Shown piece after piece: positions 1 through 30,200 of a stretch of 31,193 nucleotides of DNA (position 1 is its first letter; each line of letters begins with the position of its first letter). Both the position numbers and the translations under genes were made by a program. The DNA comes from a virus. The notes beneath the pieces were generated by a model that saw nothing but the letters and a program-made list of their open reading frames with translations, had not been told where the DNA came from and searched no databases. Location of the stretch: the IMG/VR virus record IMGVR_UViG_3300020020_000123, positions 1 to 31,193 of that record; one strand, written 5' to 3'.

Positions 1-3000
1 GATCAGCGCCTTGCTAAAGATCGTGCTTGGGCTCGCGATGTCGGCCGGGAATGAGATATAGCCATTTGTCGAGTTATAGCCAATGGCGCGCCGACTGCCG
101 CCAAACTCAAAGGCGATCACCTCTTTTTCGCCGGTCGTTGACGGCCACGTCATGGTTAAAAGGGAAGAATTGACGCCGCCCGTAATGATGCGCGCCGGGC
201 TAAAGGTGCTTGGTGTACCCAATACGCCGGCATTATCAAAGGTCAAAGCGCTAACGGCGCCACCGTTGTTACTCGTAAAGTCAAAGACTTTGCTCAAAAT
301 TGATGCTTTGATATTGATCGGCACGATGGTTTGGATGAGTAGCTCATCGCCATCCCACTTTAACCAATTGTTGGCGTTGCCGATATTGAATTTATAGCCC
401 ACTGGCGATACGCCATCATAGCCAAGGAAAAAGCCGGCGGTACCGTTGCCATAGCTCGACTTTCCGGCCGAAAAGATGGCGCCATTGTTATTGACGATCA
501 GCACGCCCGTACTCGATTGGATGGCCGAAAGGGTCGTCGCCGCGATGGCATCGGCGCTGACGGTGCCGGCGATGATCTTGTCGCCTTGCAACGTATTAAA
601 GGCTATACGGTCGCCGTTGATGGTGTTGGCCGTCATGTTGCCGGTGGTGATGGTGCCGGCGACAATCTTGTCGCCTTGTAGCGTATTAAAGGTGATGCGG
701 TCGCCGTTGATGGTGTTGGCCGTCATTCGGTCGGTGGTGATGCTGCCGGCGACAATACGGTCGGCGTTGATCGAGTTCGTGAAGATGTTGCCACCAGATA
801 TATAGGTGCCGCCGGCCACTACGTTGACGCTGGCTTTGGGGGTGCCGGGATCGCAAACGGCGATCAGCACATAGTTAACATTGTTGATAAGCGGACTGGT
901 TGACTCGATGAGATCCAAATTGCCAACGGTGTCGCCGAGGTCAATAAATAGATAGGTGCGCACGCTCATCGTCGAGGCCAATTGGCCATTGGTGACGACG
1001 CGCGAGGTGTTATTCGAGAAATGGATAGCCACCGACGCCCAGGCGATCATATTGGCGGCCGGGCTGCTCCAGGTGCCGCCCACTTTGTTCACGCGCCGCG
1101 CCTCAAAATAGGCTTGTGATTGGGTCTTGGCCAGGCCTGCATAGCCGGTGGCGGAAAGGTCGGCCTTGGCGTCGTAAATTTTATCTTGGTCGTCCACGTA
1201 CTTTTGGGTGACGGTGGTGCCGGGGTCTTGAACCAAAAGAGATCCAGCGACGGTAAGGGTGCCGTTGGCCTGCGACCAGCGCAGATAATTTCCCTTGGCC
1301 TCGTCGCCAATAATGACGTTGCCCCCTTGGCTGCCGGTGGTGATCACGCGCAGGCCGGTCGTCGTCGGTTGCTCATCGCCATTGTAGGGATCGCCGACAT
1401 TCTTGCCCACGTATAAATTGCCATCGGGCGCCCAATAGCCGGTGTTGCTTATGCCGTTATTAAGAATGATCGGCACTTTGACCAGGCGAATACCTTTGTT
1501 AGAGGCCACCAAATAGCCACTATTGGCATCGGTCAAGTCGCTGCCGGCGATCATGCCATATTGAGGGATTCCACTTACGCCCGGCATCCCCACGCCATCG
1601 AGGCGCCCCATGCGCATACGCGGGATAATGTCACCCGGGCCGCCGGCCCAAGGATTCTCGCCGGTGGTAAAAACATCGATATAGGGCGCGTAATTGAGAT
1701 CAGAGGTCATCAAAATACGGCCATCGCCGCGCTGGCCATAGCTCACGACGGCGGTGCCGGCCGGGATGGTACAGTCGCTGCCGCTGCGCTTGGTGACGCT
1801 GTAAATGCTGTATCCGTCCGCCTGCGTCGCGCTCATTACCTCAAGCCATAGGCTCGCCAGGCGCAAATCGCTATTAGAGTTCTTTTGGTCGATCTCGGTT
1901 TTGACGCGGATAATTTCGCCCGGCGAGAAATAAAAGCCCGGGCCACTGGCGGGATCGTCGATCTCGATTCTATTGCCGACGCCGGCAGTAAAGAGGGTGG
2001 TACCTTCAAAGGTGGCGCTTGTGGTGACAATGGTTAATGGATCGGTGGTCGCGCTCGGAAAGCCGGCGGCGCTACTATAAACTTGTAATTCCTCATTGTC
2101 GGTAACGGCCGCGTTGATGATGGCGTCGGCGTGCAATTTGCCGGCCGTTGCCACGATCAGGGTGCCGCCCGAGGCGTGGATCTCGTCTTTGACGAATACC
2201 GACGCGTGCAATTCACCTCGGGCCCAAATGTCGTTAAATTCGGCGTTACCTGTATGTGAGATCTGCCATCCCATGAGGCCCGAGTAAAAGCCCGGGTTGC
2301 CACTCTGCAAATTGCCTTGACTATCCAAAACGATTAGCTCGGCGCCGGCGCTATCTTCAATCCGCCATAGCCGACTAGTTTGGCCGGCCTTTTGCTTGAT
2401 TCTTTGCGTTATGTCGGTGGTCTTGGCCGCAATAATGTCGAGGGCGGCGCCGTTGGGCGCCCGGTTAATGCCCACCCACTTATTGACGGTGGCATCGGCG
2501 ACCATGAGGCCGGCGCCGATCGTTACTTGGTCGGTTTGCCCATCCACAACAAAGAGGGTGGTATCTAAGGCCAGGCCGCCAAAGCCATCGGTTTTGAGGA
2601 TTCTAGCGGCAGCGCCCGGCGTGTGCGTTGGCGTCAAGAGGCCGAGCGTATTGGTGGCGACGGCGCCCACCAGATCAAAGGCGGCGCCGGCGATGGTGTG
2701 GTCAGGGCCGGTGATATTGTGCAATTGGGCGTGATGCTGGTTTGCGCCGATGCCACCCAGGTCGTCATGCTGCAACTGCGCCCAGGCGAAAGTGGTGGGC
2801 GAAGTGGCGCGTAGGGTATAGCCAGGGGTCAAGCCAGTGGCGGTATGCTGGGCGACACCCACACCATCCGTCCCCACCAGGGGGTGGACGTGGGGGTGAT
2901 GCTGGTCAGGAGAGATGCCCGATAGCGAACCATGAGCGTGGTCAGTCAAGTCGGCAAGCGACGATCCCGACTTGTTGACGGTCGCCCAGTTGAGCAAGCC

Positions 3001-3462
3001 CGTATGGTGGCTGCTCTCATGGGCATGCGGCGAGGGTGCACCGCCAGCCCCGCCCGCCGGAATGACGTTGACCCACTTTGTGCCGTTGTATTGGAGCGCA
3101 TTGCCACTGGCCGGCGAGGTAAGCTGCACGTCGCTGAGGCCTGCCAGCGTGTCACTGCCACCGCCGCCACCACTGCCGCCGGCGGTGGCAGCCGCCTCAC
3201 GGATGACCAACTCGCCGTTCTCCCGCCGCATCTTAATGGCCTGGAAGTTGGAGCGCAGCGCACCCACGCGGTCAATGGCAATGCCGACGCCCAGGTTGCC
3301 CGCAGCCCCCAGCGAGACGACCACATAGCCGGGTCTGCCGGCGACATCAATGTCCTCGTTTGCGCCGGTTTCTGTTCCCAAGCGACCCAGAATCCAGTTG
3401 CGCTCGTTGCCCTTTTCCCAGATGCGGTCTAACGCCTGGGCAAGTTCGGCTTCATGCGTCAT
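1..3462 (-). CDS. Tail tip/tail fibre protein, partial (C-terminus beyond left edge)
   Basis: The reading frame from the ATG at 3462 stays open for 1154 codons to base 1 with no stop, so the 3' end lies outside the window. The start overlaps the stop of the upstream tail gene (ATGA, 3459-3462). Visible parts in order: a globular N-terminus (residues 1-90), a Gly/Ser linker (95-103), a 'GLSDVQLTSPASG' segment (108-120) of the kind common in phage fibres, a His-rich stretch (146-260) with HAH, HHPHVH and HH clusters typical of fibre shafts, a long beta-rich middle, and near residues 890-975 two 30-residue repeats containing 'TANTINGDRI' and 'FNTLQGDKI', like the C-terminal repeats of siphovirus tip attachment proteins. 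It should sit at the tail tip and contact the host. The position downstream of the tape-measure gene supports this. The exact receptor domain cannot be seen. Confidence 0.85.
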   Translation of the reverse strand, partial: MTHEAELAQALDRIWEKGNERNWILGRLGTETGANEDIDVAGRPGYVVVSLGAAGNLGVGIAIDRVGALRSNFQAIKMRRENGELVIREAAATAGGSGGGGGSDTLAGLSDVQLTSPASGNALQYNGTKWVNVIPAGGAGGAPSPHAHESSHHTGLLNWATVNKSGSSLADLTDHAHGSLSGISPDQHHPHVHPLVGTDGVGVAQHTATGLTPGYTLRATSPTTFAWAQLQHDDLGGIGANQHHAQLHNITGPDHTIAGAAFDLVGAVATNTLGLLTPTHTPGAAARILKTDGFGGLALDTTLFVVDGQTDQVTIGAGLMVADATVNKWVGINRAPNGAALDIIAAKTTDITQRIKQKAGQTSRLWRIEDSAGAELIVLDSQGNLQSGNPGFYSGLMGWQISHTGNAEFNDIWARGELHASVFVKDEIHASGGTLIVATAGKLHADAIINAAVTDNEELQVYSSAAGFPSATTDPLTIVTTSATFEGTTLFTAGVGNRIEIDDPASGPGFYFSPGEIIRVKTEIDQKNSNSDLRLASLWLEVMSATQADGYSIYSVTKRSGSDCTIPAGTAVVSYGQRGDGRILMTSDLNYAPYIDVFTTGENPWAGGPGDIIPRMRMGRLDGVGMPGVSGIPQYGMIAGSDLTDANSGYLVASNKGIRLVKVPIILNNGISNTGYWAPDGNLYVGKNVGDPYNGDEQPTTTGLRVITTGSQGGNVIIGDEAKGNYLRWSQANGTLTVAGSLLVQDPGTTVTQKYVDDQDKIYDAKADLSATGYAGLAKTQSQAYFEARRVNKVGGTWSSPAANMIAWASVAIHFSNNTSRVVTNGQLASTMSVRTYLFIDLGDTVGNLDLIESTSPLINNVNYVLIAVCDPGTPKASVNVVAGGTYISGGNIFTNSINADRIVAGSITTDRMTANTINGDRITFNTLQGDKIVAGTITTGNMTANTINGDRIAFNTLQGDKIIAGTVSADAIAATTLSAIQSSTGVLIVNNNGAIFSAGKSSYGNGTAGFFLGYDGVSPVGYKFNIGNANNWLKWDGDELLIQTIVPINIKASILSKVFDFTSNNGGAVSALTFDNAGVLGTPSTFSPARIITGGVNSSLLTMTWPSTTGEKEVIAFEFGGSRRAIGYNSTNGYISFPADIASPSTIFSKALI
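571..750 (-). repeat. Two 90-bp direct repeats inside the tail fibre gene
   Basis: Bases 571-660 and 661-750 are near-identical 90-bp units, in frame, each encoding 30 residues of the form D-K-I-x-A-G-T...T-A-N-T-I-N-G-D-R-I-x-F-N-T-L-Q-G. A third, partial unit extends to about 795. The repeats keep the protein repeat as well as the DNA sequence, so they read as recent duplication of a structural (beta-type) fibre repeat. Confidence 0.85.
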
Positions 3463-5399
3463 GACCTCGCCTCCCTCGCCGCTGCCGCCAACGCCGGTTC
3501 GGCTTCCGGCACATCCGGCCACAAAACGTGGGTCTGCGCCGGCTTGCCGCTCGTTTCCATCTCCCAACTAAAGCTGACGGTACGAATTAGGCCCGTGGGC
3601 TGATAGTCGTAGGCGATGTTCATTTCCTGTACCAGCCCACGCTGGGCGGTAAAGGTGGCGGGCAGTTCGCGCTCGCTCTTGTTGGCATCGCTGATGGTCA
3701 GCAGCACCCAGTTGGGGATGGAGAGGTCAAGCCCGCTGTACATCTTTTCCAGCGGCACAGAGATGTTGAAGAGGCCTACGCGGGCGTTGAGGCGCGCATA
3801 GCGGTTGCCCTCGACGACGTTGAGCGAGAATTGCGAGACGGTGATCTTGTGGCTGTTCTCTAACTCCTGCTCGCCCTGGCCACGGCTGTCACCAGGCGCA
3901 TCACAGGCAATGACGGGAATCGTGGGCACGCCGCCCACGTCCACCTTGTTGCGGCCCGCCAACATCGCCATCGTGCGAATCTGCCCCATCCTCGGCGGGC
4001 GTGCGTAGGTGTAGCTAATCTCTGTCCACTTAGAATCGTCGAAGTGATCCCACACGGTTGTGCCGCGGTCGGAGGCGTTCTGCACCTGCGGGTCAACGAC
4101 CAGGCGCAGCTCACCCTGGCGGCTGCAAGTAAAGTGATGATCGGGATTACAAAACATAGCGATGGCTTCGACCTGGGCATAAAGGTTGGCGCGGTCGCTG
4201 CCCACCTCCACAAATTCCATCGTCGCCAGCATCTGCGCCCTATCGACCAGGAAGTCGGCCACCTCACAGGCGGTCGAGTGCCAGTAGAGCAGATACCAGC
4301 AATAATAGAGAAGGTTGGGGAGCTTGGTCTGCGTCCACTGCACCGGCGCAGCGTCATACTTCACCGCCTGCGTGAAGCCGGGCAGCGACTCCAAGCGTTT
4401 GTTGACATCGTAGAAGGTCATGGTTGCGCTGTGCAGCGTAGCCGTATCCTCGGCGCGCGTGGACGCGGCGTCGCTCTGGTGCCAGCCGATAAATTGCATG
4501 TGCCAACGCATGGTGGGGTCATAGAAGATGGCGTCATCCCACAGCATCATCAGCGTACCGTCCGGGTATTGGTCACGCGGCAGCGGCGTGAAGAACTCGA
4601 TGCTCATCTCCTGCCCTACAAAAGTGTGGGTGTGGTTGGTGACGTGAAAGGCGGTAATGCCCGCATTGGCGGGGTCGCTGGGGTCACAGGCGAAAACGGG
4701 AACCTGGCACGTATGCGACTGCACAGGCGAACCCCCTGTCACCGTCAAATATACTTGGTGAAAACCCTTCTTAAAGCGCAGCGTGACGATGGCAGTGGTC
4801 AAGGAGCCGGAGACGACTTCCCAGGTGCCGGCAGTGGAGGTGCATGCCCACAGGAAAGAGGCTGCCCCCACGACCGGCGGTGACGATGCGGTAGAGAAGG
4901 CCCAGGAGTTATTGCCGTTAAAAGTGACCGTCAGCCAGCCGGCGGCATCGACCTGGCCCGCAGTCCCTGGCCCACCGTTGGCGACGGGACGCGGGCGGTC
5001 TACATTGTTGAAGGAAGCGACTTCGCTGTCCTTCCAAATGGCGCCGCCGTGAAACCAGGGAATCTTGGCCCACACGCGGTAATCTTCCAGCACCGTGATA
5101 TAGGAGTTCTCGACCAGCGTGCCCTCGCCATCGCCGATGCCCTGCGAGAAACGGCCCACGTGCATGACATTGGTGGGGTAGAGGTCGTCCATCTCCCGAT
5201 AGCGCAGCCTGCCGTAGTCGTCTTTGCCGGGCGCCGTTCCCAAGAGAACGGTCATGCCTGAGCGCAGAGCCGTATACGCCCCCACTGTTACATTCTTGAA
5301 GGCGATCACGTACTGCGGATAGACAGCCGCATTGCCACCCAGGTCGACCTGGGCCGTAAAGACCACTTTGGGCTTATGCAAGTAAAGGCGCAGGGCCAT
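3459..5399 (-). CDS. Tail protein (baseplate/tip hub-like, with PKD/Ig-like domain)
   Basis: This 646-residue protein lies between a small tail protein and the tail fibre, where siphoviruses encode distal-tail and tip hub proteins. The N-terminal ~135 residues are beta-rich with many aromatics ('GGAIWKDSEVASFNN'). Residues ~150-230 look like a PKD/Ig-like beta sandwich ('FLWACTSTAGTWEV', then 'GFHQVYLTVTGG'). The central and C-terminal parts ('FVGQEMSIEFFTPL', 'LVVDPQVQNASD', 'RELPATFTAQRG') resemble hub proteins that form a ring at the tail end. No enzymatic motif is visible. Start: ATG at 5399 with an AGGA-like ribosome site about 6 bases upstream. Its stop overlaps the fibre start by four bases. 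The hub assignment is from position and general character, not from a recognised family. Confidence 0.7.
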   Translation of the reverse strand: MALRLYLHKPKVVFTAQVDLGGNAAVYPQYVIAFKNVTVGAYTALRSGMTVLLGTAPGKDDYGRLRYREMDDLYPTNVMHVGRFSQGIGDGEGTLVENSYITVLEDYRVWAKIPWFHGGAIWKDSEVASFNNVDRPRPVANGGPGTAGQVDAAGWLTVTFNGNNSWAFSTASSPPVVGAASFLWACTSTAGTWEVVSGSLTTAIVTLRFKKGFHQVYLTVTGGSPVQSHTCQVPVFACDPSDPANAGITAFHVTNHTHTFVGQEMSIEFFTPLPRDQYPDGTLMMLWDDAIFYDPTMRWHMQFIGWHQSDAASTRAEDTATLHSATMTFYDVNKRLESLPGFTQAVKYDAAPVQWTQTKLPNLLYYCWYLLYWHSTACEVADFLVDRAQMLATMEFVEVGSDRANLYAQVEAIAMFCNPDHHFTCSRQGELRLVVDPQVQNASDRGTTVWDHFDDSKWTEISYTYARPPRMGQIRTMAMLAGRNKVDVGGVPTIPVIACDAPGDSRGQGEQELENSHKITVSQFSLNVVEGNRYARLNARVGLFNISVPLEKMYSGLDLSIPNWVLLTISDANKSERELPATFTAQRGLVQEMNIAYDYQPTGLIRTVSFSWEMETSGKPAQTHVLWPDVPEAEPALAAAAREARS

Positions 5400-8444: not shown

Positions 8445-8795
8445 ATGAAAACAAAGAGCCTGATTTTTACCGTCCTACTGAGTTCGCTTGTCCTCTTCAA
8501 TGTCGGCTCTGCCATCCTGCATCCAGGGCAAGGCTCCACGCGCGCTTCCGCTCCCACTCAGGGCCGTTACGCCCTTACCCTTGTCGCCAAAGAATGGAAC
8601 AATGGCAAGGTGCATATCTGGAACAACCTGAGCGAAGATGCCACTACCACCTTCACCGACGTTGCCGGCCAGGACGTATGCCAACGACTTGACAATGAAC
8701 TTCACAAGTCACGCTACGCGCCCTACATCTACTATTACAAGGTGGATTGCGGGAATGGCGTGGTCGGCTATGTCGAGCAAGATCAGGCCCGTTAA
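8445..8795 (+). CDS. Small exported protein of unknown function
   Basis: A 116-residue protein on the plus strand, opposite to the tail genes around it. It begins with a clear signal peptide: K-T-K, a hydrophobic core (SLIFTVLLSSLVLFNV) and a likely cut after 'GSA' (about residue 23). The mature part is ~93 residues, rich in Trp/Tyr/Asn ('EWNNGKVHIWNN', 'APYIYYYKVDCGNG'), with two cysteines ('DVCQRL' and 'VDCGNG') that could form a disulphide outside the cell. I chose ATG 8445 rather than the in-frame GTG at 8427 because the signal peptide starts there. No convincing ribosome binding site is seen. I do not recognise the family. Its setting beside a homing endonuclease and against the late operon suggests lysogen-expressed cargo. 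Confidence 0.65.
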   Translation: MKTKSLIFTVLLSSLVLFNVGSAILHPGQGSTRASAPTQGRYALTLVAKEWNNGKVHIWNNLSEDATTTFTDVAGQDVCQRLDNELHKSRYAPYIYYYKVDCGNGVVGYVEQDQAR

Positions 8796-8841: not shown

Positions 8842-8850
8842 TGATATAAT
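8842..8850 (+). promoter_or_regulatory. Extended -10 promoter for the homing endonuclease
   Basis: TGATATAAT is a perfect extended -10 element (TG-n-TATAAT). No good -35 lies at 17 bp. TTGAAA at 8816-8821 is 23 bp away, too far. Start of transcription would be about 8857, the first base of the structured leader. Confidence 0.6.
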
Positions 8851-8856
8851 TACACC

Positions 8857-8974
8857 TGTCGAGGGCGAGTTTGTTGACCGAAAACAGGTAACCTGATATT
8901 GTTCATGCTGCCTTCTGTTAGCGACCTATGCCCTCGACAAGCAACGGTCAATCGTTAACAGAAGGCGTTTTTTT
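8857..8974 (+). ncRNA. Structured 5' leader RNA of the homing endonuclease gene (candidate)
   Basis: Three perfect or near-perfect helices interlock. A: TGTCGAGGGC (8857-8866) pairs with GCCCTCGACA (8930-8939), 10 bp. C: TTGACCG (8874-8880) pairs with CGGTCAA (8945-8951), 7 bp. B: 8910-8924 (GCCTTCTGTTA...) pairs with 8952-8966, 15 bp including one G-U. The order is A, C, B, A', C', B', so no two helices nest. Helix B is followed by seven T residues (8968-8974) directly before the ATG, so it looks like a terminator. Its 3' arm contains the only ribosome binding site (AGAAGG, 8960-8965). ACCTGT (8854-8859) can also pair with ACAGGT (8884-8889). It matches no RNA family I know. Switching function is inferred. 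Confidence 0.55.
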
Positions 8975-10333
8975 ATGGCTCAGATGTTTGTATGCAAGAA
9001 CTGTGGTATCACTTTTCGCGGTAAAGCCTCTAAGAAACCCCAGTGTTGCAGTATCGCTTGTCGCCGTGAGGCTGCAATCAATGCCCGCCAGAAAACTTGT
9101 CCGCAGTGCGGTAAAGAATTCCTGATAGACAGCGTTGCGCGGGATGCCGTTCATTGCAGTCGCCAATGCGCGGGCAAGGCGCAACGCATCATTCTTACCT
9201 GTATCTGCGAATATTGTGGCAAGACATTTGAAAAGCGTCCGAGTGGCCAACAAAGACATTGCAGCCACAAATGTGGACTTGCCGCGCAGAAGGGCAAGGA
9301 TCGCCCAAGCATGAAAGGCCGCACGCCCTGGAACGCTAAAGAGCGTCCGCCAAAAAACGTACTGTGCGAGTTGTACAAAGTGCAACATCTTTCGCCCGTC
9401 GAAATAGGAAGTCGATTTGAAGTGCAGGCTCAAACAATTCGCGGATGGTTGCATGATTACGGTATTCCTGTTCGGCCCGATCATATAGCGGCTCGTTTTC
9501 AGCCTGGCATGGAAGTTGCTCATAAGAAACCGGTACCAGACAAGGAAACCCTTTCTTACTTATATCTCGACTGGAAAATGACAACTGCTCAAATTGGCGA
9601 ACACTATCAAGCCAGCGGTAACACGGTTGGCAAGTGGCTCAAGCATCATGGAATTTCCGTGCGGCCCGCTGGAATTGGTTTGAATGCTCGCGGCATTGAG
9701 CTTCCTTCTGATGCCGAACTTCAACACATGATCCATACCGAACGTCTTACCTATCGCGAGGTAGGCGAGCGTTATGGCGTTGATTTGACGGCTGTTACGT
9801 ACTGGTTGGATCGTGCTGGCGTCGCGCGTCATAAGACTTGGCACGAACGGCATAACAACCCGCATGATTTGGCCGCCATGCAAGCGCTTTATGATGACGG
9901 CTTGTCGATGGAGCAAATCGGTCAACTGTATGGAGCAACGGCTACGCCGGTAAAGACTCTGTTTCAAGAACACAATATTGCCGCTCGTAATAGTGGGTGG
10001 TCTGGCGGTATTCGCTTCGAGACAAAGGATGGCAATCTGGTTCGCTCTACCTACGAGCGACGGGTAGCGAATTGGCTTTGCGATCAAGGTGTTGAGTATC
10101 TCTATGAACCTGTCCTGCCATTTCGAGGGCTTTGCGATTTTCTTGCCAATGGCTGGTACATAGAAGTCTGGGGTGTTGACTCGGCCAGCTATAAAGAACG
10201 CAAAGCAATCAAGCAAGCTCAATACAAAGCGCACCACGTGCCGCTGATCGAGCTGCCCTTTTACGCCTTCGATAGCCAACGCAAAGGCATGTGGGAGCGC
10301 CGGCTTGCGCGCTGTTTGATTGCACCAGATTAG
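8975..10333 (+). CDS. Modular homing endonuclease: 3 zinc ribbons, 4 HTH repeats, PD-(D/E)XK-like nuclease
   Basis: A 452-residue protein with three modules. Residues 7-29, 42-65 and 78-100 are C-x2-C...C-x3-C (or CC) zinc ribbons (C7/C10/C25/C29, C42/C45/C61/C65, C78/C81/C96/C100). Residues ~130-168, 193-231, 248-286 and 301-339 are four helix-turn-helix repeats of pattern L-x-x-L/M-Y...S/T-x-x-E/Q-I/V-G-x-x-Y...V/I-x-x-W-L. Residues ~355-445 form a Vsr/restriction-like nuclease with 'STYERRVANWL' (E361), 'GLCDFL' (D388) and 'WYIEVWG' (E397), so the usual Lys after the last acid is Trp, as in EDxHD-type phage nucleases. Its role would be cutting a target site to spread the element. It lies antisense inside the tail operon, ending 5 bp before the stop of a convergent tail gene. 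Codon use looks more A/T-rich than its neighbours. The ribosome site AGAAGG lies inside a leader hairpin. Confidence 0.8.
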   Translation: MAQMFVCKNCGITFRGKASKKPQCCSIACRREAAINARQKTCPQCGKEFLIDSVARDAVHCSRQCAGKAQRIILTCICEYCGKTFEKRPSGQQRHCSHKCGLAAQKGKDRPSMKGRTPWNAKERPPKNVLCELYKVQHLSPVEIGSRFEVQAQTIRGWLHDYGIPVRPDHIAARFQPGMEVAHKKPVPDKETLSYLYLDWKMTTAQIGEHYQASGNTVGKWLKHHGISVRPAGIGLNARGIELPSDAELQHMIHTERLTYREVGERYGVDLTAVTYWLDRAGVARHKTWHERHNNPHDLAAMQALYDDGLSMEQIGQLYGATATPVKTLFQEHNIAARNSGWSGGIRFETKDGNLVRSTYERRVANWLCDQGVEYLYEPVLPFRGLCDFLANGWYIEVWGVDSASYKERKAIKQAQYKAHHVPLIELPFYAFDSQRKGMWERRLARCLIAPD

Positions 10334-20421: not shown

Positions 20422-21693
20422 CTACCAGGTTCCGGCTTGTTTTTTGTCGGCCAGCATCAATTCCGTAAAGGCCCAGACGGCGGCGTCGAGGCGGTCGGGG
20501 CTGGTGTCGCCGGGCAGCCAAGTGCATAACTGATCCTCTAATTCGGCAAACGCACCCACATGCTTGACACGCCCATTCTCATAGAGGGTAGACACCGGCT
20601 CGGCGCGCGTATGCTTGCCGCGGCTGGCGTGGAGCTGCTTGTAAGGGACGCGATCGCTGCGGCGCTCCTCCTGGCGATACAATTCTTTGGCCGCCGCCTC
20701 CACCACAAATTTTACCATGTCGCCGCCGTTGTTGGTTTCGGCCACAATGCGGTCGGCGTCCCAGCGGTCAAAGGCGCGCACAACGGCACTCCCCCACTCA
20801 GCAGGAGATCCGCGCAGTGTGCAATCTTCCAGCAGGTAGCCGATCTCGTTTTCATCCACGCCGGCCACAATGATGCCAGTCTCGGCGCTGGTGGCCGTCG
20901 CCGTTGCTTCTGGGTCTACTGCCACCACGATGCGGTAGAGCGAAGGAGCAACCTTGATGCGGTTCTTTTCTAAGATCGCTCGCGTCCACAGTGCTCCCGG
21001 AACTTCGTCGATGTCCTCGGCCAAAATTTCCTGGCGGTAGGCCAAATTGCTCATGTCGCTGGCGATCTCGTTAAGCGCTTCATGGCTCAGATGCGGGTTA
21101 TCATGGCTGCTAAAGGTAAAGGCGGCCCAGCGTCCAGTAGTATCTGCCTGCGCAGCCGCAAAGAGCTTGGCCGCATGCTTCTTGTCATGGGCCTTGCTCA
21201 CGCCTGCTGTGCGCGAAGAGGGTGGCGTATAGATAAAGACCGCATCGCCATCGTTATCGAGCAGCATCGGCGCGCCGACCACACCCCAGGCATCCTCATT
21301 CATCATTTGCCATTCATCCAGAATAAGGAGGTCAGCGTAATCGCCGCGAAGCGTGTCGGAGTTCCAGGCTGTTTTTGCCTTAATGCGCTGTTCCGTTCCA
21401 CGCAGTTCAATGGTCTTTTCCGTCTCATTCTTGTAGTATAGCCCGGCATCGATGCAAGGTTGCAAGGCGTCGCGAACATGTCGCCAAAAGGTGTTGATTT
21501 GGTCAGCCGTGGGCGCGGCATAGAGGACCCGACGACCCTTTAAGAAACACTCGACCGCCTTGATCGCCATGCCAACCGTCTTGCCGCCACGCCGGCCTGC
21601 GCGCACGACAATGCGCTTGGCCGGGCAGCGCAAAAATTCGCGCTGCTTCGGATGTGGTTTACTTAGGCGTACTATCAGTTCCTTCGGTGCCAT
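20422..21693 (-). CDS. terL: Terminase large subunit
   Basis: A 423-residue ATPase-nuclease. The Walker A-like motif is AGRRGGKT (residues 32-39), Walker B is LLILDE (122-127), and the nuclease acids are D260 in 'IVVAVDPEAT', D325 in 'ETNNGGD' and D403 in 'DRLDAAVWA'. Both ATPase and RNase H-like nuclease look intact. The start at ATG 21693 lies 35 bases inside the small terminase gene and is preceded by GAGG. It docks to the portal and pumps and cuts DNA. Only 15 bases separate it from the portal start. Confidence 0.95.
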   Translation of the reverse strand: MAPKELIVRLSKPHPKQREFLRCPAKRIVVRAGRRGGKTVGMAIKAVECFLKGRRVLYAAPTADQINTFWRHVRDALQPCIDAGLYYKNETEKTIELRGTEQRIKAKTAWNSDTLRGDYADLLILDEWQMMNEDAWGVVGAPMLLDNDGDAVFIYTPPSSRTAGVSKAHDKKHAAKLFAAAQADTTGRWAAFTFSSHDNPHLSHEALNEIASDMSNLAYRQEILAEDIDEVPGALWTRAILEKNRIKVAPSLYRIVVAVDPEATATATSAETGIIVAGVDENEIGYLLEDCTLRGSPAEWGSAVVRAFDRWDADRIVAETNNGGDMVKFVVEAAAKELYRQEERRSDRVPYKQLHASRGKHTRAEPVSTLYENGRVKHVGAFAELEDQLCTWLPGDTSPDRLDAAVWAFTELMLADKKQAGTW

Positions 21694-28975: not shown

Positions 28976-29292
28976 AGCGGATCTATCCCGATGCTGCTGC
29001 AGCCCCACAGCCAAGTCGCCAGCTCGTGCGCCGTCTTGACGTGCTCAATCGAAGCACGCAACATGCCCAGCTCGTGCTTGGGCCACTTCCAGCACGGTGC
29101 ATTGATAAAATAGGCACAGTATTCCACAACGAGGCGCAACTCGTCCGCTGTCGGCTCGGGCTCGAATCTGGGGTCTGCCATGTGGCGCACATAGACCAGG
29201 ATGGCAGCCCGCGTTGCGCCGTCACGGTGGCCCCAGTAGTGCAAGGGTAAGCCCAGCTCGCCGTAGGTGTCAGTAAAGAGGGTGGCGCTCAT
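28972..29292 (-). CDS. Early protein of unknown function
   Basis: A 106-residue protein from ATG 29292 (ATGA overlap with the replication gene). Helical, with 'LGLPLHYWGHRDGATRAAIL', 'LRLVVEYCAYFINAPCWKW' and 'IEHVKTAHELATWLWGC'. Trp- and Cys-rich for its size. It follows the replication initiator directly, so it might take the place of a helicase loader (lambda P position), but no P-like or DnaC-like motif is visible. Confidence 0.62.
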   Translation of the reverse strand: MSATLFTDTYGELGLPLHYWGHRDGATRAAILVYVRHMADPRFEPEPTADELRLVVEYCAYFINAPCWKWPKHELGMLRASIEHVKTAHELATWLWGCSSIGIDPL

Positions 29293-30200
29293 GGCGCGGC
29301 CTCCCTGCTGTAACGCTTGTTCGGCGTATTGTTTTGGTAATCGTCGAGGTTGTAGCTACGCTTGCCATCTGCCACCAGCTCATCCGGCAGCCTGTGGCGG
29401 TGGAAGAGCTCACTGTCACGGAAGGCGGCGGATAGCTTCACCGTCTGGGCGCTGGATGGCTTGAGCTTTTCCAGGCGATGCTTAAGCACGCCAGCCGTCA
29501 CCTTGCCCACTTGGGCATCCGGCAGCCATTTGTCCACGGCGCGGTAAATGTCCTGTGGTGGCAGTTTGCGCGCCAGATCATCCGCCACGCTGTGGATCAC
29601 GCCAACCTCGCTATCAACTAGCAGCTCAAACGCAAGTTGCTGATCGCCCCGTAACGGCGGCGGTTTGTTTTTGGTTTGGGAGGTAGGTGGGTAGGTAGGT
29701 TTATTCCTCTTACTAGTATTGGTAGTAGATAAAGACCTACCTAACCTACCTAAAACGCGCGTATGACTGGAACGCGCAGCTACTGCCTGTTTTCCGACAC
29801 TATCTGCCTGTTTTCCGACTCCTACTGCGCGTTTTCCGACAGTAGCTGCCTGTTCTTCGTTATTGTCAACGCGCAGTAGGAGTCTGTTTTCAGACACTAG
29901 CTGCGCGTTTTCCGACAGTAGCTGCCTGTTTTCTGCCAACAAATCGGCGTCAATCTTCCAAGTAATGACGGTTATTGCGCCGCCGCGCCAGTCAATCAGT
30001 CCCCTTGCTCCCATCGTGCGAAGGTGGCGGCGCGCGGCGTCGGCATGGTGGCAGCCGGTCAACGTCTGGTATTCTTCCCAGCTCATAATCGCTTGCCCGT
30101 TGTCGTCCAGAAGGCGGGCAATTCTCACCGCCGTGCGATAGACTGCGATCGGCAAGTCCGCGTCCTCGATTCTGTCAAGGATCAAAGGCAATAGGCTCAT
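29289..30200 (-). CDS. Replication initiator with winged-helix N-terminus and internal origin (lambda O-like plan)
   Basis: A 303-residue protein from ATG 30200 (GGAGGG site). Residues ~15-85 are a winged-helix domain ('AVYRTAVRIARLLDDNG', 'SWEEYQTLTGCHHADAARRH', 'ARGLIDWRGGAITVITW'). Residues ~86-180 are a low-complexity linker that encodes 7-residue repeats in two forms, S-E-N-x-Q-L-L and V-G-K-Q-A-x-S, both translated from a 21-bp DNA repeat. The C-terminal ~120 residues are helical ('LPPQDIYRAVDKWLPDAQVG'). The plan (DNA-binding domain, linker carrying iterons, partner-binding C-terminus) is that of lambdoid initiators. The early operon position supports this. I cannot prove homology to lambda O. 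Confidence 0.75.
   Translation of the reverse strand: MSLLPLILDRIEDADLPIAVYRTAVRIARLLDDNGQAIMSWEEYQTLTGCHHADAARRHLRTMGARGLIDWRGGAITVITWKIDADLLAENRQLLSENAQLVSENRLLLRVDNNEEQAATVGKRAVGVGKQADSVGKQAVAARSSHTRVLGRLGRSLSTTNTSKRNKPTYPPTSQTKNKPPPLRGDQQLAFELLVDSEVGVIHSVADDLARKLPPQDIYRAVDKWLPDAQVGKVTAGVLKHRLEKLKPSSAQTVKLSAAFRDSELFHRHRLPDELVADGKRSYNLDDYQNNTPNKRYSREAAP
29681..29751. repeat. Imperfect inverted repeat around an A/T-rich segment next to the iterons
   Basis: The left arm (29681-29700) is built from AGGTAGGT units and the right arm (29735-29751) from ACCTACCT units, about 17 bp of pairing. Between them is an A/T-rich stretch (TTATTCCTCTTACTAG and GTAGTAGATAAA). It lies 32 bp from the iteron array, within the same gene. 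It could be a DNA unwinding or hairpin part of the origin. Confidence 0.65.
29783..29942. repeat. Iteron array, 21-bp units (candidate replication origin)
   Basis: Units of 21 bp, core CTGCSYGTTTTCCGACA, start at 29783, 29804, 29825, 29846 (degenerate), 29880 (degenerate), 29901 and 29922, so the period is two helical turns. One gap of 34 bp between 29846 and 29880 shifts the phase by one base relative to codons. The same DNA repeat thus encodes SEN-type peptides on one side and VGK-type peptides on the other, which shows the DNA, not the protein, is under selection. Binding by the encoded initiator is inferred. Confidence 0.82.

Follow-up and report, generated by a model that had tools for sequence, protein, structure and literature searches.

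What does an RNA with three interlocking helices do in front of a viral endonuclease gene, and is it a property of this gene? The locus lies in a virus record of 31,193 bases, which we analysed at full length and call the window. An initial annotation had placed the helices A, C and B between a promoter and the start codon in an order that forbids nesting. Reading the window sequence directly, we found all arms complementary and following each other as A, C, B, A', C' and B', so that all pairs of helices cross (Table 1), a topology (ABCABC) that has been named 'pseudotrefoil' (PMC3390330). Helix A comprises 10 perfect pairs and an additional G8867.U8929, helix C comprises 7 perfect pairs, and the core of helix B with 15 pairs, one of them G.U, is extended by U8909.G8967 to 16 pairs (14 Watson-Crick and two G.U). 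All arms are contained in the RNA that is predicted to start from the -10 box ahead of A, as the annotation had claimed; within the leader itself only a weak promoter match at chance level was present (8874-8902), and the clear -10 box precedes A. The sequence from 8952 to 8975 also agrees with the earlier description, with the Shine-Dalgarno sequence (SD) inside helix B and the ATG of the nuclease at 8975, immediately 3' of the T-run. Helix B, a G+C-containing stem of 16 pairs followed by TTTTTTT, has the stem and T-run of an intrinsic terminator; with its loop of 27 nt it is not called by a standard terminator scan, which covers loops of 3-8 nt.

Table 1. Position of the leader elements and of the following gene in the window; L126 and L131 are the phage loci compared in the text.
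Feature	Position	Strand	Remark
Extended -10 element TGATATAAT	8842-8850	+	Consensus match; start predicted at the first base of A (about 8857)
Helix A, 5' arm TGTCGAGGGC	8857-8866 (8867 including G.U)	+	Pairs with 8929-8939
Helix A, 3' arm A' GCCCTCGACA	8930-8939 (8929 including G.U)	+	Re-complemented in L131
Helix C, 5' arm TTGACCG	8874-8880	+	Pairs with 8945-8951
Helix C, 3' arm C' CGGTCAA	8945-8951	+	Adjoins B' directly; re-complemented in L126
Helix B, 5' arm GCCTTCTGTTAGCGA	8910-8924 (8909 including G.U)	+	Pairs with 8952-8967
Helix B, 3' arm B' TCGTTAACAGAAGGC	8952-8966 (8967 including G.U)	+	SD inside
Shine-Dalgarno sequence AGAAGG	8960-8965	+	Wholly within B'; ATG 9 nt after the SD
T-run after B', 7 T	8968-8974	+	Intrinsic-terminator-like in sequence
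Rod of the A-closed fold (predicted)	8871-8924	+	8871-8878 with 8917-8924; 8886-8890 with about 8911-8915
Small hairpin AACG/CGTT (C':B', predicted)	8943-8956 (8943-8946/8953-8956)	+	From prefix folding; accompanies the A-closed fold
Homing-type endonuclease, 452 aa	8975-10333	+	N-terminal Cys pairs (zinc-knuckle-like), HTH repeats, PD-(D/E)XK-like C-terminus

Shuffled controls supported the interlock. The best A+B combination scored -52.9 compared to a shuffle mean of -20.8 (sd 2.9, best -33.5) and was reached by none of 2000 dinucleotide-preserving shuffles, and A, B and C together scored -60.2 compared to -40.1 for the best of 2000 shuffles; these scores are stacking energies without loop or pseudoknot penalties and serve as ranking values, not as free energies. 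A helix C whose 3' arm abuts B' was found at P = 0.0021 in the window by shuffling, and the nested folding energy of the leader had a z-score of -3.76 (0/200 shuffles). The sole comparable interlock elsewhere in the window, at 29776-29882, was discarded as a second element as it is made of coding tandem repeats. Each repeat is about 21 bp long (CTACTGCCTGTTTTCCGACA and variants); the array extends over 29776-29933 in the minus-strand ORF 29289-30200, gives strong crossing inverted repeats on both strands and probably encodes a repetitive protein linker. Another tandem repeat, of 90 bp in 2.2 copies, is located at 558-756 inside the long minus-strand ORF 1-3567.

Pseudoknot-free folding of the window leader gave alternative folds, as had been proposed. 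The minimum free energy fold (MFE, -40.1 kcal/mol) has A closed around a predicted rod that engages the 5' arms of both C and B, and the best fold containing B reaches -36.3 kcal/mol. In prefix folding of the growing chain A and the rod are complete before B' exists, and the spacer of the window favours the rod (2/300 in a spacer-shuffle test). The claim that the start signals of the nuclease are buried holds for one of these folds: the mean unpaired probability of the SD (8959-8964) is 0.00 in the B fold, whereas the more stable A-closed fold leaves it mostly open (0.83). With the SD fully within B' and the ATG 9 nt further on, these values would fit a translational lock in which B hides the SD, A or a trans-acting factor keeps B open and the T-run has no role in termination, a reading that we regard as possible, if rather unlikely. 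It has precedents in I-TevI, I-TevII, I-TevIII and segB of T4 and in mobE of Aeh1, where the SD of a homing endonuclease is hidden in a single hairpin that is bypassed by an internal late promoter (PMC2988022). Common to both is a stable 5' stem that contains the SD of a phage homing endonuclease. The T4 bypass promoter, however, sits within the hairpin, whereas the promoter of the window precedes the whole structure, and the leader described here differs further in having three interlocking helices after the promoter, a T-run at its end and, as described below, a counterpart in front of an ORF that does not encode a nuclease.

This counterpart is present in the sister phages L131 and L132, which were located via the gp10-like neighbour of the nuclease (74% identity) and not via the leader sequence. 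Their element occupies the orthologous site between the gp10-like gene and the tape measure gene, in the same antisense orientation as in the window, with the tape measure proteins being 38% identical. In L131 the -10 box TGCTATGAT shows a similar spacing to A as in the window, helix A (TTGCTTAGGATGC/GCATCCTAAGCAA) is re-complemented relative to the window, helix B (TGGCCTTCTTTCGCCG/CGGCGAAAGAAGGCTG) is re-complemented in its upper part, and the T-rich tract TTTTTATTT follows B' at the same place as the T-run of the window. None of 1000 shuffles gave an A+B interlock as strong. For helix C there was no convincing candidate in L131 (best 5 pairs, P 0.23). The SD of L131 lies downstream of the T-run and outside helix B, and the ORF following the L131/L132 element codes for a protein of 274 aa with an N-terminal hydrophobic stretch, which is no nuclease, is unrelated to that of the window and gave no match in a family search.

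A third locus was obtained with the A arms alone: this pattern matched 112 viral contigs, and a scan for B and a T-run identified one with the full layout, L126. As only helix A was used as query, C, B, the T-run, the promoter and the downstream endonuclease of L126 were outside the query. Its promoter is TTGACT-17-TATTCT with a similar spacing from the -10 box to A as in the window. Helix A (GTCGAGGGCACA/TGTGCCCTCGAC) is identical to that of the window in GTCGAGGGC...GCCCTCGACAAGCA while B and C differ, although L126 was selected on the GTCGAGGGC/GCCCTCGAC part. Helix C (GTCGCC/GGCGAC) is re-complemented relative to the window, with C' again abutting B' without a gap (P = 0.0038, shuffling), and helix B (AGCAGTTGTCAGGCG/CGCCTGACAACTGCT) has different arms that are likewise re-complemented. 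B' is followed by the interrupted T-tract TTTTTGG, no clear SD was found, and the A+B interlock was as strong in 0/1000 shuffles. The small C':B'-type hairpin also has a counterpart in the MFE fold of L126. The downstream ORF encodes a DUF1064-like endonuclease without detectable similarity to the nuclease of the window, and the element is collinear with its neighbours, whereas those of the window and L131 are antisense. Both phages, that of the window and that of L126, have distant terminase and PolX-like proteins in common.

The three loci have in common the -10 box, A at the predicted start of the RNA, B, A', B', the T-rich tract and the ORF; an SD within B', the type of ORF and the orientation to the neighbours are not shared. 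As MAFFT aligned the leaders with the arms out of register, pairs were compared by hand-set arms. In helix B the comparison of window and L126 shows changes on both sides, with pairing kept, in 8 of 14 aligned pairs and a one-sided change in a further pair; window and L131 differ in this two-sided way in 4 of 14. Homologous leaders lacking compensatory changes had been named beforehand as the result that would speak against the structure; A, B and C are all re-complemented, C in one comparison only. The A+B interlock is present in all three loci and C is supported in two of them, window and L126 (P about 0.002-0.004 each). The linkers are similar in the three loci and (window/L126/L131: 41/27/37 nt between A and B, 4/10/6 nt from B to A' and 12/18/13 nt from A' to B') compatible with an H-type pseudoknot of A and B. 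In the other two loci the A-closed and the B fold have -55.2/-55.1 and -35.4/-35.3 kcal/mol, so that the gap over all three is 0.1-3.8 kcal/mol, a balance that may be coincidence since nested energies take no account of pseudoknots and have an error of several kcal/mol. The rod test is clear in the window only, as L126 shows a signal in energy and not in occupancy of the B arm, and L131 in occupancy and not in energy.

Chance repeats without function, to which three loci only and the weak C of L131 might point, are hardly credible given that none of the 2000 shuffles reached the interlock and that the layout recurs in a third phage as well as at the orthologous site of L131/L132, which already speaks against chance for A and B. 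The layout is also rare: in an architecture-filtered scan of 3.57 Mb of phage DNA, consisting of loci gathered for other reasons and thus a background and no census, only the three elements and one intergenic case in L016/L017 scored below -39. This case (4632-4725) was left out: A+B is strong, but the T-run is weak and no ORF of that orientation suits the layout. It consists of interlocked inverted repeats in the gap that separates the major capsid gene from the gene of a probable decoration protein, and a structured RNA may be encoded here on the minus strand. The presence of A and C also weighs on the idea of an insulator, a strong terminator for plus-strand transcripts from an ORF at 8445-8795 or its equivalents, in which case A and C would be incidental repeats. 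The position of this ORF just upstream of the leader and the T-run after B would suit such a function. Nevertheless we consider it highly improbable, because an insulator needs no A or C complementarity, yet A keeps pairing in three loci and C in two, all three loci carry a -10 box at the 5' end of A, and L131 has no co-oriented gene upstream of its element, the tape measure gene being divergent. Burial of the start signals as a common property did not survive the comparison, with the SD of L131 beyond the T-run and no clear SD in L126, and this lack of conservation also counts against the translational lock.

Searches beyond these loci were largely negative. None of 4227 Rfam families, including riboswitches and the alpha-operon leader, matched at the gathering threshold (best sub-threshold hit 12.8 bits, E 2.4), in line with the earlier statement that the leader fits no known family. 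No homolog was found by BLASTN when all three leaders were compared with phage records and two of them also with plasmids, the B-arm pattern had no match across viral contigs, two broader A-helix patterns gave no member beyond L126 among the matches listed, and whole contigs of related phages together with most of Methanosarcina virus MetMV contained no further element. The large terminase of the window (20422-21693) is 57% identical to that of MetMV, its closest GenBank phage match. Two other leads were discarded: MT836657 (L143) matched in coding sequence without the arms, and L061 has a long perfect inverted repeat of different layout.

The annotation as homing endonuclease is a fair label for the window protein, with homing itself remaining putative. 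The predicted structure of its C-terminal domain matches the catalytic domain of I-Bth0305I (3r3p) with a Foldseek probability of 1.00 (TM-score 0.70 when scaled to the target, 3.3 A, E 0.039), which is evidence at the level of the fold. An RNA-guide reading (HEARO/IscB-like) was dropped, as Rfam gave no match and the nuclease is similar to homing enzymes of the protein-guided type. The idea that the leader is a trait of this nuclease could not be maintained. Relatives of the nuclease with 23-45% identity (L001, L002, L006-L018) lack an interlocked leader; their leaders are short or missing, and in most of them a promoter-like box is separated from the start codon by between a few bases and some tens of bases. 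The element itself is found ahead of an unrelated nuclease in L126 and ahead of an ORF that encodes no nuclease in L131. The leader is thus not a trait of the nuclease family. A scan of genome contigs for the nuclease found none. In L009, L011, L012 and L015 the -10-like boxes are so near to the nuclease start codon that the transcripts may lack a leader, and in L008 the leader of a family member contains a plain stem (CGTAAA..CGTG/CACG..TTTACG, about 1980-2020).

In L001, L002 and the window the nuclease gene lies antisense directly behind the gp10-like gene with the 3' ends touching or overlapping, and this might be a preferred insertion site of the nuclease family. A second antisense accessory ORF on the plus strand adjoins the window leader (8445-8795, 116 aa, signal-peptide-like start, no family match). 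As this ORF in the window and the 274-aa ORF in L131 occupy the same gap, the region between the gp10-like gene and the tape measure gene looks like a pocket of exchangeable accessory genes.

The order of the elements also allows another view, namely a stand-alone trans-acting sRNA of about 115 nt with its own terminator, whose target might be the nuclease, the late operon or the host, and with the ORF expressed by read-through similar to a type III toxin-antitoxin system. Promoter, pseudoknotted or pseudoknot-capable RNA, terminator and ORF follow each other as in ToxIN (PMC8860590), here at the level of consensus sequences, and the identity of A in window and L126 despite differing B and C would suit this view, but L126 was selected on part of A. 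Unlike ToxIN the leader has no tandem array at 8857-8974 and no Rfam match, no toxin family was found for the ORFs, which do not resemble ToxN or AbiQ-type endoribonucleases, and the downstream ORFs of the three loci are mutually unrelated. Moreover, the ORFs start 0 nt (window), about 10 nt and 17 nt after the T-tract, and since they hug the T-run in this way a leader fits better than a free-standing sRNA gene, which we consider quite unlikely.

We therefore favour, with moderate confidence, a leader RNA that acts in cis, spans about 115 nt (8857-8974), represents an undescribed phage RNA family and works as a conditional terminator (attenuator) before accessory genes. Expression of the following gene would probably depend on this device. 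The predicted start, the A+B interlock, the T-rich tract and the nearby ORF are common to all three loci, which SD burial is not, and this points to transcriptional control. In this attenuator model transcription would begin at the 5' end of A, as predicted from the promoter consensus, and A would pair with A' ahead of the synthesis of B'. With the A domain closed, the rod would tie up the 5' arm of C as well as that of B and keep the terminator off, with the ribosome site of the window also open. The emerging C' could then reclaim the C arm and B' the B arm, and as C' and B' are contiguous C might stack on B, giving a long stem right before the T-run and switching the terminator on, a state that in the window would also close the ribosome site. 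A may persist alongside B, as both fit the loop lengths of an H-type pseudoknot, and all three helices might form together with C stacked on B and A alongside. A translational lock on top of the terminator is plausible for the window only. Several points disfavour the attenuator: the loop of helix B is long for an intrinsic terminator (27-40 nt across the loci), the T-tract of L126 is interrupted, and there are only three independent loci, one of them (L126) chosen by its A helix, with C not seen in L131 and the rod clear only in the window. No ligand, protein or trans-acting RNA that sets the switch was found.

As in terminator/antiterminator riboswitches and attenuators, an upstream strand would compete for the 5' arm of the terminator; here, however, no aptamer was recognised, there is no leader peptide and the helix closing the antiterminator domain crosses the terminator. 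For a knotted switch at a ribosome site the nearest functional analogue is the E. coli alpha-operon pseudoknot, a complex pseudoknot over the ribosome site that mediates S4 repression by entrapment (PMC10931766). In contrast to the phage accessory genes considered here its control is translational only and concerns ribosomal proteins, and there is no sequence or Rfam match between the two.

In summary we class the leader as a new RNA family that would work by a mechanism of known type. Should the triple knot be the working fold, it would deserve more than this status, and a more tentative reading, which we think improbable at present, is a new class of phage RNA with a native ABCABC pseudotrefoil as sensor, in which the order of A and C sets termination at B and the cassette is swapped between unrelated accessory genes. 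In the same improbable reading A would lie beside C with C stacked on B, and the cassette would consist of promoter, knot and terminator. Three-way interlocked (ABCABC) folds are rare among the RNA structures known, with 51 sequences in one survey (PMC3390330), and a compact natural example with covarying arms, a built-in read-out through terminator and ribosome site and mutually unrelated genes downstream would provide a clean system for the co-transcriptional folding of topologically demanding RNAs. It would also suggest a portable phage RNA switch that restrains potentially costly accessory genes, homing nucleases included.
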